From an uncultured Oscillospiraceae bacterium (GTDB lineage Bacteria; Bacillota; Clostridia; Oscillospirales; Oscillospiraceae), in NCBI GenBank assembly GCA_944387075.1, contig CALXDO010000011.1, positions 1-47,568 on the forward strand: a stretch of DNA of 47,568 bases, written 5' to 3'. Positions 533 to 46,895 of this stretch are shown here, one piece after another; position 1 is the first letter of the stretch; each line of letters starts with the position of its first letter. A program made the position numbers and the translations under genes. The notes beneath the pieces were generated by a model, which searched no databases, was not told the DNA's origin, and saw only the letters and a list, made by a program, of their open reading frames with translations.

Positions 533-2023
533 ATGAACGAAGCCATTTCCAAACTGATTACTTACGCTGTCCGCACGGGGCTCATTGAGCCCTGTGAGAC
601 CACCTGGGCCACCAATGCGGTGCTGGAGGTGCTCAAGCTGGACAGCTACGCCGACCCCGGACAGGAGTGGGGAGACATCGACCTGGCGGCGGTGCTGAAC
701 GAGCTGCTGGACGACGCCTACCAGCGCGGGGTTCTCACCGAGAACTCCGTGGTGTACCGGGACCTCTTTGACACCGCCATTATGGGCGTCCTCACCCCCC
801 GGCCCAGCCAGGTGCGGGCCAAGTTTGACGCTCTGTACCGGGAGGACCTGCAGAAGGCCACCGACTGGTACTACACCTTCTCTCAGGATACCAACTACAT
901 CCGCCGGGACCGCATCGCCAAGGATGTGCGGTGGAAGGCAGATACCGAGTATGGGGAGATGGACATTACCATCAACCTCTCCAAGCCGGAGAAGGACCCC
1001 AAGGCCATTGCCGCCGCCCGCAACCTCCCCGCCTCCAACTATCCCCGCTGCCAGCTGTGTGCAGAGAATGAGGGCTACGCCGGACGGGTGAACCATCCCG
1101 CCCGCCAGAACCACCGCATTGTGCCCATTACCATCAACAACTCCCCCTGGTTCCTGCAGTACTCCCCCTATGTGTACTACAATGAGCACTGCATCTGTCT
1201 CAACCAGGAGCACACCCCCATGAAGATTGACCGGGCCTGCTTTGGCAAGCTGCTGGATTTTGTCCGCCAGTACCCCCACTACTTTGTGGGCTCCAACGCG
1301 GATCTGCCCATTGTAGGCGGCTCCATCCTGGCCCACGACCACTTCCAGGGCGGGCGGTACACCTTCGCCATGGCCACCGCTCCCGTGGAGACTCCCGTGA
1401 CCTTCGCTGGTTTTGAGGATGTCTCCGCCGGCATCGTCAAGTGGCCCATGTCGGTGATCCGCATTGCCAGCGAGAACCCCCAGCGGCTGGTGGAGTTGGC
1501 CGACAAGATTCTGCTCAGCTGGAGAGGGTACACCGACCAGGGGGCCTTCATCTTCGCCGAGACCGACGGGGAGCCCCACAACACCATTACCCCCATCGCC
1601 CGGATGCGGGATGGGAAGTATGAGCTGGATTTGGTGCTGCGCAACAACATTACCACCGAGGAGTACCCCCTGGGTGTGTACCATCCCCACCAGAAGCTGC
1701 ACCACATCAAGAAGGAGAACATCGGCCTCATCGAGGTCATGGGTCTGGCCGTTCTCCCCGCCCGGCTGAAAGAGGAGTTGGCCCAGGTGGCCGACTGCCT
1801 GGCCACCGGTGCCGACCTGCGAGCCCAGGAGACCACCGCCAAGCACGCGGACTGGGCGGAAGGCTTCAAGGGCAAGTACGAGAGCATCACCCAGGACAAC
1901 GCCTGGGAGATTGTGAAGTACGAGACCGGCCTGGTGTTTGCCCAGGTGCTGGAGCACGCCGGGGTGTACAAGCGTACCCCTGAGGGCAAGGAGCAGTTCT
2001 TGAAGTTTATTGCACAGGTGTAA
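533..2023 (+). CDS. galT: UDP-glucose--hexose-1-phosphate uridylyltransferase, GalT class 2
   Basis: GalT moves UMP from UDP-glucose to galactose-1-phosphate, giving UDP-galactose for the neighbouring GalE to epimerise. The 496-residue product has the length of the Firmicutes-type (class 2) GalT, longer than the roughly 350 residues of the E. coli type. The ILAHDHFQGG segment carries His268 and His270; by family knowledge the HxH motif holds the nucleophilic His. NHPARQNHRIVPI and YYNEHCICLNQEH are other conserved blocks. I chose ATG 533 because AAGGAGG sits at 515-521, overlapping the galE stop. The longer open frame upstream lies inside galE. A strong hairpin terminator follows the stop. 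Confidence 0.95.
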   Translation: MNEAISKLITYAVRTGLIEPCETTWATNAVLEVLKLDSYADPGQEWGDIDLAAVLNELLDDAYQRGVLTENSVVYRDLFDTAIMGVLTPRPSQVRAKFDALYREDLQKATDWYYTFSQDTNYIRRDRIAKDVRWKADTEYGEMDITINLSKPEKDPKAIAAARNLPASNYPRCQLCAENEGYAGRVNHPARQNHRIVPITINNSPWFLQYSPYVYYNEHCICLNQEHTPMKIDRACFGKLLDFVRQYPHYFVGSNADLPIVGGSILAHDHFQGGRYTFAMATAPVETPVTFAGFEDVSAGIVKWPMSVIRIASENPQRLVELADKILLSWRGYTDQGAFIFAETDGEPHNTITPIARMRDGKYELDLVLRNNITTEEYPLGVYHPHQKLHHIKKENIGLIEVMGLAVLPARLKEELAQVADCLATGADLRAQETTAKHADWAEGFKGKYESITQDNAWEIVKYETGLVFAQVLEHAGVYKRTPEGKEQFLKFIAQV

Positions 2024-13194: not shown

Positions 13195-13761
13195 ATGAAG
13201 AAATTGCTGATGTTGTCCGCTGTGACCCTGTGCGCCGGGCTGCTTCTCTCCGGGTGCACAGCCTTTATGACCAAAACCGAGGTGACCACCCAGGAGGTGG
13301 ACACCCTGCCTCCGGTGGAGGTGACCCAGCCGGTTGAGACCTCCCAGCCTCTGGACCAGGAGAGGCTGTTTGACGCCCTGGCCGGGGACAGCATCCTGGG
13401 TGTGGTGATTTTGAGTCCCACCCAGAAGGAGTTGGAACTGGCACAAAACGTGGATCAGGTATTCCCCCACCAGGAGTATGGGGAATATATGCTCGTGGTG
13501 CCAAAACTTCCCGGCAGCACCATCACCTTGCAGGAGTTGACCTACGACTATGACACCGGCGAAGTGGTGGAGGTGAAGGACGTTCACACCACCAGCGGCA
13601 CCGATCCGGTGGCCATGCTGGTGCAGCAGGACATCCCCGAGGGCTTTCCCACCCTGCGGGTGGTCATTGAGGCCCAAGGACGCACCGGAACCTACGACCT
13701 GACCTACTATGGCAAGGGGGACGGGCGGCGAGACTTTTATATCATATGGAATCGAGAATAA
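13195..13761 (+). CDS. Putative lipoprotein of unknown function
   Basis: I do not recognise the family. The 188-residue product starts with a lipoprotein signal: MKK, a hydrophobic stretch and the lipobox LLSGC, so it should be lipid-anchored at Cys21 on the outer face of the membrane. A Thr/Val/Glu/Pro-rich linker (about 22-55) leads to a compact domain with alternating beta-type segments (ILGVVILSPTQKELELAQNV, LQELTYDYDTGEVVEV, FPTLRVVIEAQG). The start is 33 bases after ybeY, with GGGGG as a ribosome site. It lies where many Firmicutes have dgkA/cdd. Nothing in it suggests an enzyme; it could be a substrate-binding or envelope-stress component. Confidence 0.8.
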   Translation: MKKLLMLSAVTLCAGLLLSGCTAFMTKTEVTTQEVDTLPPVEVTQPVETSQPLDQERLFDALAGDSILGVVILSPTQKELELAQNVDQVFPHQEYGEYMLVVPKLPGSTITLQELTYDYDTGEVVEVKDVHTTSGTDPVAMLVQQDIPEGFPTLRVVIEAQGRTGTYDLTYYGKGDGRRDFYIIWNRE

Positions 13762-13763
13762 TC

Positions 13764-13950
13764 TCTCGAAAATGCAAGCATTTCCGAGAAGTTACAGCCC
13801 GCTGCAGCGCACCAGCGAAAGCTGGCACGTTTGCGGGCTGAGAAGTGTATTTTCTGATGCGCATGTCCTCAGAAAATACGTGATTGTAATTTATTTTCCC
13901 GCCGGAGGCGGGAAAACTCTGCGAGGCTTAACAGCCAGGAGAGATTGAAA
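13764..13950 (+). ncRNA. Dispersed structured RNA element, copy A (before era)
   Basis: First of three copies of an unrecognised folded element. Order: variable hairpin (13764-13775 with 13778-13789); P2 (AGCCCGC 13796-13802 with GCGGGCT 13833-13839) enclosing a CCAGC-GAAA-GCTGG hairpin; invariant GAGAAG (13840-13845); P3 (TATTTTCTGA 13848-13857 with TCAGAAAATA 13869-13878) with loop TGCGCATGTCC; P4 (TTTTCCCGCC 13894-13903 with GGCGGGAAAA 13907-13916); then CTCTGCGAGGCT. The stems pair perfectly yet differ from those of the other copies, while loops and joiners are kept. It fills the gap between the lipoprotein gene and era and ends about 85 bases before era. The exact ends are uncertain. Confidence 0.8.
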
Positions 13951-14033
13951 CAGTTGAAAAGAGGTAAGCCTCTTTCAAATAAAAACGGCCATTGTTCAAT
14001 GCCAATACCAAAGAAAGTTGAGGATCATCTACT

Positions 14034-19425: not shown

Positions 19426-19453
19426 AAGCGCCGCTCACAGCGGCGCTTTTTTT
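19426..19453 (+). terminator. Intrinsic terminator after ptsH
   Basis: A 9-bp perfect stem (AAGCGCCGC 19426-19434, GCGGCGCTT 19440-19448) with loop TCACA ends in a run of seven T. It lies 13 bases after the ptsH stop and ends just before element copy B. Confidence 0.95.
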
Positions 19454-19458
19454 AATCC

Positions 19459-19655
19459 CGTTTGGAAAGACACGTCTTTCCAAACGAAGAAAATTACACC
19501 CTGCTGCGCGCATATTTGGTCCGCCAAAGGCAGACCAAATCCACACTTGCAGGGCGAGAAGTATTTTTCCCGACGCACATGTCGCCGGGAAAAATGGATT
19601 TCAATTTTTTGTGCCTGCGGGCACAAACTCTGCGAGGCTAAGTCGAAGACGAGAG
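19459..19655 (+). ncRNA. Dispersed structured RNA element, copy B (before uvrC)
   Basis: Second copy of the element. It opens with a perfect 13-bp hairpin (CGTTTGGAAAGAC 19459-19471 with 19474-19486). P2 is CCCTGC (19499-19504) with GCAGGG (19549-19554), enclosing an ATTTGGTC/GACCAAAT hairpin. Then come GAGAAG (19556-19561), P3 (ATTTTTCCCG 19563-19572 with CGGGAAAAAT 19586-19595) with an ACGCACATGTCGC loop, the joiner GATTTCAATT, P4 (TTTGTGCC 19608-19615 with GGCACAAA 19620-19627) and CTCTGCGAGGCTAA from 19628. Lying directly after the ptsH terminator, it would need its own promoter or belong to the uvrC transcript. It ends about 35 bases before the uvrC start. Confidence 0.8.
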
Positions 19656-46184: not shown

Positions 46185-46691
46185 ATGTTGAAAAAAGTGG
46201 AACCCAAGGAGTTGGACTTTAACGTCTTTTCCGCCATTGGTGACCAGTGGATGCTCATTACCGCCGGGGACAAGGAGGACTGCAACACCATGACCGCCTC
46301 CTGGGGTGGCCTGGGCATCCTGTGGGGCAGCCCCATTGCCATTGCCTATATCCGGCCCCAGCGGTACACCAAGGAATTTGTGGACCGTGAGGAGTATTTC
46401 ACCCTTTCTTTCTTTGGCCCTGAGTACCGTCCTCAGCTGGCCCTGTGCGGGTCCAAGAGCGGCAGAGATGTGGACAAGGTGGCAGAGTGCGGCTTCACCG
46501 TGGCCACAGCAGCGGGGGACGCCCCGTATTTTGAAGAAGCGGACATGGTGCTGGTGTGCCGCAAGCGCATGGCCCAGCGCATGAATCCCTCCTACATCCC
46601 GGAGGACGTGCGGGAGAAGTGGTACCCGGAGGGAGATTACCACACCATGTACATCGGGGAGATTGTGGAGGCCCTGGTCAAACACCATTGA
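46185..46691 (+). CDS. Flavin reductase family protein (FMN-binding split barrel)
   Basis: The 168-residue product belongs to the flavin reductase-like family, small FMN proteins that pass electrons from NAD(P)H or bind FMN for a partner enzyme. Seen: DQWMLITAGDKEDCNTMTAS (the FMN-phosphate loop), GILWGSPIAIAYIRPQRYTK and EYFTLSFFGPEYR, all family blocks. The partner and physiological role are unknown. Its stop codon lies inside the left arm of the first hairpin of element copy C, so the two sequences are fused. It has its own promoter. Confidence 0.88.
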   Translation: MLKKVEPKELDFNVFSAIGDQWMLITAGDKEDCNTMTASWGGLGILWGSPIAIAYIRPQRYTKEFVDREEYFTLSFFGPEYRPQLALCGSKSGRDVDKVAECGFTVATAAGDAPYFEEADMVLVCRKRMAQRMNPSYIPEDVREKWYPEGDYHTMYIGEIVEALVKHH

Positions 46692-46895
46692 ACGGACACC
46701 ATGTGCCCGTTCAATGGTGGAGTGTTGCAGCCCACTGCGCGCAAGGCTTGCCCAAAGGACGGGCAAGCCTCACACTTGTGGGCTGAGAAGTGTTTTTCCC
46801 GATGCGCATGTCCTCGGGAAAAACGGGATTTCAATTGATTTCCCCGCCTGGGGGCGGGGAAACTCTGCCGAGGGCACGGTCCGAGCAAGACGAAT
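46683..46895 (+). ncRNA. Dispersed structured RNA element, copy C (before hflX)
   Basis: Third copy. A perfect 13-bp hairpin (CACCATTGAACGG 46683-46695 with 46707-46719) includes the stop codon of the gene before it. P2 is AGCCCAC (46729-46735) with GTGGGCT (46778-46784), enclosing AGGCTTGCCC/GGGCAAGCCT. Then come GAGAAG (46785-46790), P3 (TTTTTCCCGA 46793-46802 with TCGGGAAAAA 46814-46823) with loop TGCGCATGTCC identical to copy A, the joiner GATTTCAATT, P4 (TTTCCCCGCC 46839-46848 with GGCGGGGAAA 46853-46862) and CTCTGCCGAGG from 46863. It ends about 15 bases before the hflX start. Confidence 0.8.

Follow-up and report, generated by a model that had tools for sequence, protein, structure and literature searches.

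IS1272, a member of the IS1182 family of insertion sequences, targets stem-loops, confirmed terminators among them (PMC4923244), and in the sections of the two relevant papers considered here it deletes or replaces the stem-loop, with target duplication absent (PMC4923244; PMC5678879). In the part of PMC5678879 that holds its model figure, branch 6b depicts a cruciform attacked at its 5' feet, by which the stem-loop is duplicated. Structured multicopy repeats are also described: according to the passages considered, bcr1-type repeats often lie within UTRs or intercistronic regions (PMC3446304; PMC2267715), while in the portion of PMC11109978 used here candidates of the MRSC-65-2 type were judged selfish and possibly relevant as DNA. 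In the open-access literature, outside which most subscription journals lie, we found no paper on the element described below; judging from the parts of PMC8040213 and PMC11109978 considered, these large structured-RNA studies may hold it unlabelled.

We investigated a window of 47,568 nt, i.e., the whole stretch of DNA that was analysed, from an uncultured Oscillospiraceae genome (G000). The first-pass annotation had placed three copies of a structured element in it (13764-13950, 19459-19655 and 46683-46895), with stems that vary by paired changes. All three were confirmed at these positions on the plus strand, and the P2 and P3 arms quoted there were located in each of them. In the copy before the Era-like gene (MMR_HSR1 and KH_2 domains), hairpin P1 (13763..13789, +) precedes a core (13793..13928, +) that a covariance model, R1, built from seven copies of the own genome, the three window copies among them, matches with 141.6 bits. 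This core comprises P2 (13796-13802/13833-13839, +), GAGAAG (13840-13845, +), P3 (13847-13857/13869-13879, +), P4 (13894-13916, +) and the tail CTCTGCGAGG (13917-13926, +). By eye, a small stem-loop, GAGA-ATAA-TCTC, lies over the stop codon of the upstream gene (13754..13765, +), a 188-aa ORF with no Pfam match, and a hairpin, TTGAAAAGAGGTAAGCCTCTTTCAA, lies at 13954..13978 (+); these are the possible left and right copies, respectively, of a target hairpin. At empty sites one hairpin like the 13754..13765 stem-loop is present, AGAGAATTAAATTCTCT in G010 and AGAGAAGGGTAACCTCTCT in G018.

The copy before uvrC shows the same arrangement, with P1 at 19459..19486 (+), the core at 19495..19639 (+; R1 match, 138.8 bits), P2 at 19499-19504/19549-19554 (+), GAGAAG at 19556-19561 (+), P3 at 19562-19572/19586-19595 (+), P4 at 19608-19627 (+) and the tail at 19628-19637 (+). 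Left of it, behind the gene for HPr, lies a terminator-like hairpin with a T-run (19428..19453, +), which is also found at the empty site of relatives. The third copy, between a flavin-reductase-like gene and an HflX-like gene (GTP-bdg_N), has P1 at 46683..46719 (+), its 5' arm containing the stop codon of the upstream gene, followed by a core at 46726..46874 (+; R1 match, 157.1 bits) with P2 at 46729-46735/46778-46784 (+), GAGAAG at 46785-46790 (+), P3 at 46792-46802/46814-46824 (+), P4 at 46839-46862 (+) and the tail CTCTGCCGAGG at 46863-46873 (+). Folding of the first 150 nt of each copy gave z = -4.9, -7.5 and -4.7 against dinucleotide shuffles, and none of 200 such shuffles folded as well.

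Comparison with the wider family revealed what the window copies have lost. A full copy runs from AGCGTGTCGAAAAA, which lies within a hairpin, P0, through P1, P2, P3 and P4 to the tail CTCTGCCGAGGGCTTTT and then TTTTTTGACAGTCTG; the family is well supported as a miniature transposable element (MITE) of about 290 nt, non-autonomous and with IS1182-type ends. The P0 left end is absent from all three window copies, which are thus eroded, with the left end gone and the core, P1-P4, retained.

The expectation of the first-pass annotation that a covariance-model search would find many copies per genome, and further ones in relatives, was borne out. The own genome, 2.27 Mb in size and 88% complete, yielded 18 R1 matches at E<=0.001. 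Scores of 14 matches fall at 74-157 bits, and among the four lowest-scoring ones (31-44 bits) are short forms that retain P1, joiner, P4 and tail but lack P2 and P3. Three own-genome loci (L004, L008 and L012) are such short forms, each with a P1-like hairpin, joiner, P4 and tail. In a survey of 60 genomes, for which 51 candidates per genome were scored so that counts are lower bounds, R1 matches occurred in at least 19 genomes (own included), among them at least 17 of the 37 genus members; within the genus, nine relatives hold at least 24-49 matches each, and none were detected in others of the genus. Across the order, at least 38 of 295 genomes and at least 22 of 148 genera have matches, again lower bounds, since 10 candidates per genome were scored. 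The core pattern was found in 45 stretches of named genomes, carried by Pseudoflavonifractor, Candidatus Flavonifractor merdavium, Candidatus Enterenecus avicola and uncultured Oscillospiraceae. It also matches one IMG/VR viral contig (L144) with terminase, portal and major head genes, in which the copy (1759-1906, minus strand) lies just 3' of the major head gene and on the same strand as the gene. The same head-gene end is seen in Pseudoflavonifractor sp. An85 (L135), and hence this contig may be an An85 prophage. A blastn search of phage and plasmid records with one copy gave no match.

Occupied and empty sites show how the element is distributed among relatives. Among the 30 of 42 genus genomes fetched, the element lies before era only in G000 and G001; at the uvrC site, for which seven contigs were compared, the core is present only in G000, and a P1-like hairpin is present in G018 and G020, where it is either a remnant or an older feature. 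The hflX copy is orthologous in six genomes. At one site in G020 two hairpins flank the element, and four relatives have one hairpin. Near 37.6 kb in the window, a hairpin site is element-free in G000; G001, G010 and G018 hold a copy there in one orientation and G020 a copy in the opposite one, as if the site had been hit twice.

To this we can add a family-wide comparison of flanks. A set of 236 matches was reduced to 144 unique, nearly full-length copies, 136 of which entered a test for direct repeats; a separate search covered 100 of 131 source loci. The two flanks shared a direct repeat of 14 bp or longer in 18/136 copies vs 0/675 shuffled pairs, and 16 of these 18 copies have P0. A gapped comparison covered 158 copies (42 with P0, 116 without); distant copies were added for it, and five duplicated loci as well as any copy whose flanks were short were omitted. 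In 26 of the 42 P0 copies the flanks exceeded all shuffled controls, and 24 of these 26 flank repeats (25-44 bp, median 31) fold as hairpins; the other 16 P0 copies have no clear duplication in this comparison, and 13 of the 116 copies without P0 exceeded their shuffled controls. The hairpin-element-hairpin layout, seen in more than half of the P0 copies, recurs in other genera, and from their shape and place the flanking hairpins are putative terminators. In four loci (L285, the second copy of L287, L288 and L289; G223), a nested hairpin around a CAGTTCGTTCTT...AAGAACGAACTG-like motif extends P1, an arrangement that resembles an additional hairpin-targeted insertion.

The ends of the element point to a probable source of mobility. 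Among the loci that carry the right end TTTGACAGTCTGA are two fragments of transposase genes in the own genome, and in a sister genome, G010, locus L182 is a complete insertion sequence that encodes a 484-aa transposase of the IS1182 family (NF033551, 385.9 bits with a cut-off of 270; DDE_Tnp_1_6). The ends of this insertion sequence, CAGACTGTCGAA(A/G)AAC, are matched by the ends of the element, AGCGTGTCGAAAAA and the reverse complement of AGACTGTCAAAAAA. It is flanked on both sides by a 32-bp hairpin, the two copies of which differ in two loop bases, and another IS1182-matching locus in G010 starts with AGCCTGTCGAAAAAGG directly behind a hairpin. At L182 and L289 the flanking pair differs as if the loop were inverted (GA vs TC and GTGT vs ACAC, respectively), unlike L145, in which the flanking hairpins are plainly direct copies. 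IS1182 models matched in 9/17 element-bearing vs 7/17 element-free genomes, hence there is no simple association between IS1182 and the element; matches over the cut-off came from three genomes, all element-bearing. In the mechanism that we propose, a transposase of the IS1182 family would mobilise the element in trans; the target would be extruded as a cruciform, and the transposase would link the element ends to the stem-loops of this cruciform at their 5' feet. Joining at the 5' feet would duplicate the stem-loop and so leave a terminator on each side. As far as the consulted part of PMC5678879 goes, the family described here resembles branch 6b.

Two candidates had been put forward in the first-pass annotation, a non-autonomous mobile element, which these results support, and HEARO/omega-type RNA. 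The latter explanation, in which the copies would be the many orphans of an RNA that guides an IscB/TnpB-type nuclease, agrees with a dispersed, multicopy element and with its RNA-like fold of several hairpins. The comparison with Rfam that the annotation proposed gave no known family that matches the element: nothing reached the gathering score in the whole window, a search of 13700-14030 at E<=10 returned one weak CRISPR-DR9 match outside the core, and six loci searched at E<=1 gave three matches, all far under their gathering scores. HEARO (RF02033) was not matched in any of these searches (gathering score for the window, E<=10 for the first copy, E<=1 for the six loci). Its model also found nothing in 14 element-bearing genomes, a search that alone is no proof of absence because control genomes were likewise silent. 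The RRXRR domain of IscB/IsrB reached its cut-off in 0/14 of the element-bearing genomes, two matches below it lying in frames of 1365 and 1369 aa. Given these results, along with the IS1182-like ends and flanks of the element, we consider a HEARO/omega RNA highly improbable.

The fold itself was assessed in an alignment, A4, of 121 matches (115 distinct rows). Among the 115 rows, 95.7% of stem cells pair vs 82.8% after shuffling, 324 cells are changed on both sides vs a shuffled mean of 55, and both-side change occurs in 21 of 26 pairs. None of 500 shuffles reached any of five pairing measures, and slid structures fared much worse. Covariation was scored against a null in which both tree and substitutions are preserved; with 20 replicates E-values below 0.05 could not be resolved, and 300 were used. 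In this check for covariation, which the first-pass annotation had called for, only three pairs have E<0.01 under the strict null, one each in P3, P4 and the inner P2 hairpin, though the top eight scores all belong to helix pairs. Two of the top eight covarying pairs sit in that inner hairpin, which is unpaired in the model. Besides the stems, unpaired blocks are strongly conserved, namely GAGAAG, an RCATGTC loop, the GATTT joiner and AACTCTGC. A pairing of the P2 internal loop with the P3 loop and one of CTTCTC with GAGAAG were considered by eye, and as no covariation was apparent both were discarded. In a subtype (L300, L030, L051, L068 and the second match of L215), a different hairpin, marked by a TCGATT...TC motif, takes the place of P2, and GAGAAG, P3, P4 and the tail are kept; from this subtype, the modules of the element seem exchangeable.

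Orientation with respect to genes differs between copies with and without the left end. Gene calls were made by a hexamer scorer, which placed a gene on both sides of 135 of the 144 copies; only one of the 144 copies lies inside an ORF. Genes flank 41 of the P0 copies on either side; the neighbours are convergent in 24 cases, and the co-directional cases are divided into 8 along the genes and 7 against. Hence, the shared orientation noted in the first-pass annotation is true within the window but is only local, P0 copies at co-directional sites being unbiased. Copies without P0 are found 49 times along the genes and 19 times against them, and the median distance between the upstream gene and the start of the element is 39 nt in this group. 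Many copies have lost the left stem-loop as well as P0; these follow closely on the upstream gene and for the most part share its direction.

At orthologous sites, the core has diverged less than its surroundings. In 29 comparisons, which partly share a reference and are thus not independent, and from which L103/L116 and pairs less than 62% identical upstream were left out, change amounted to 5.3% in the core, 10.8% in P1 and 18.0% in the flank (15-95 nt downstream), and in 28 of the 29 the core showed the smaller change of core and flank. By orientation these comparisons comprise 22 sense, 4 antisense, 2 divergent and 1 convergent; mean core change was lower than that of the flank in each group, with few antisense or divergent cases. 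Moreover, across 17 ortholog clusters, from which the same loci and low-identity pairs were excluded, both partners had changed in 21 of 786 stem pairs that still form Watson-Crick pairs; chance both-side variation would give 3.1. At the hflX site one pair of the inner hairpin reads G-C in G018, G.T in G001 and A-T in G020. Because the core diverges less than the flank and the stems co-vary in place, retention of the core after insertion is supported, though gene conversion and palindrome repair could account for part of the pattern. Stem pairing, double changes and low core divergence at orthologous sites support the earlier claim that the fold is kept by selection. The further claim, that the element is RNA and not just repeated DNA, overreaches: what the data establish is the kept fold and not transcription.

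The alternative that would need no function in place is that palindrome-correcting template switching, or gene conversion, produces both the paired changes and the low divergence. Family-wide, double changes do far outnumber intermediates, and some differences between orthologs swap whole family alleles, e.g., the inner P2 hairpin of L259. Such correction is harder to reconcile with the conservation of unpaired blocks, with the 28 of 29 comparisons in which the core is less changed, and with the hflX copies, which carry variants not found at other A4 sites and the stepwise series G-C, G.T, A-T. We therefore regard it as quite unlikely.

Which strand folds is a matter on which the cues conflict, the family-wide wobble pointing to the minus strand and the orientation bias to the plus strand. 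A plus-strand A.C mismatch corresponds to a G.U wobble on the minus strand. Non-Watson-Crick changes in P2, P3 and P4 were 41 of A.C type and 11 of G.T type across the family (expected A.C share 0.54, p=0.0004); the counts were 31 to 19 in P1 and 56 to 25 in the inner hairpin, and the minus-strand fold was more stable in 134 of 144 cores. In ortholog clusters the two types are level (13 A.C vs 17 G.T); the plus-strand A.C excess in A4 is seen in all five helices counted and is absent from these clusters. By eye, nothing conserved that resembles an own promoter was found. The core could instead act as DNA, its single-strand hairpins serving the transposition or replication of the element and the copies being purely selfish; the wobble in every helix counted, the lack of a conserved promoter by eye and the conservation of the core across subfamilies and genera despite differing hosts would all fit. 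The related complete insertion sequence L182 lacks such a core in the parts read, though, and copies without P0 keep their cores at orthologous sites and are biased in orientation, which end-bearing copies are not. On balance, action as DNA appears unlikely.

We favour the reading, with a probability of roughly 0.7, that the window copies are eroded and retained MITEs of IS1182 type whose core is then a putative cis-acting, transcribed RNA. Once the left terminator is lost, the core would be transcribed with its operon and, as a structured RNA of the 3'-UTR or of an intercistronic region, would act in cis in end protection, processing or read-through. We propose that hosts keep the core because of this action in cis; the transcribed cis RNA is our best inference from sequence, not a result. 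Against a sense RNA of the plus strand speak the family-wide mismatches, which favour the minus strand, and the cores that are also kept in antisense and divergent positions, few as these cases are.

The first-pass annotation had remarked that the genes downstream of the three window copies have no common pathway that could account for them, and our findings agree: the same structure stands before era, uvrC and hflX because of insertion. The element has spread through gut bacteria by inserting at hairpins that follow genes, and its older copies retain the fold where they stand, as if it were now used by the host. As the target stem-loop is duplicated, the element can enter a terminator without removing it. 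Possibly, though we put this forward tentatively, a transposon guided by structure, with an extra terminator left behind on either side, has spread one conserved RNA or ssDNA structure, which hosts repeatedly kept as a cis-regulator. If true, dozens of gene junctions in each genome, throughout an order, have received one structure. Sites that are orthologous, some filled and others empty, would make the gain of a structured element by an operon testable, and conservation in place still poses a real functional question beyond insertion.

Comparison with described systems is limited to the parts of the cited papers considered here. With IS1272/TnSha1 (PMC4923244; PMC5678879) it shares, through its relative L182, the transposase family, and also stem-loop targets, many of them terminators, with little preference for primary sequence; unlike IS1272 it duplicates the stem-loop, and unlike IS1272/TnSha1 it is non-autonomous and has a conserved multi-hairpin core. 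It thereby provides many natural cases of stem-loop-duplicating transposition, which the sections of the IS1272 literature considered draw only as a possible branch. MRSC-65-2-type mobile or repeat candidates (PMC11109978, in the portion used) are likewise multicopy structured motifs, but MRSC-65-2 is marked by repeated UYCCGG, unlike the present element. Similarly to the element, bcr1 and related repeats of B. cereus are MITE-like and intergenic with conserved secondary structure (PMC3446304; PMC2267715), whereas bcr1, from Bacillus, is an unrelated family, and the passages considered of these two papers describe neither where its mover comes from nor hairpin-duplicating targeting. The element is a variant of structured MITEs such as bcr1, to which structure-guided targeting of the IS1182 type is added.
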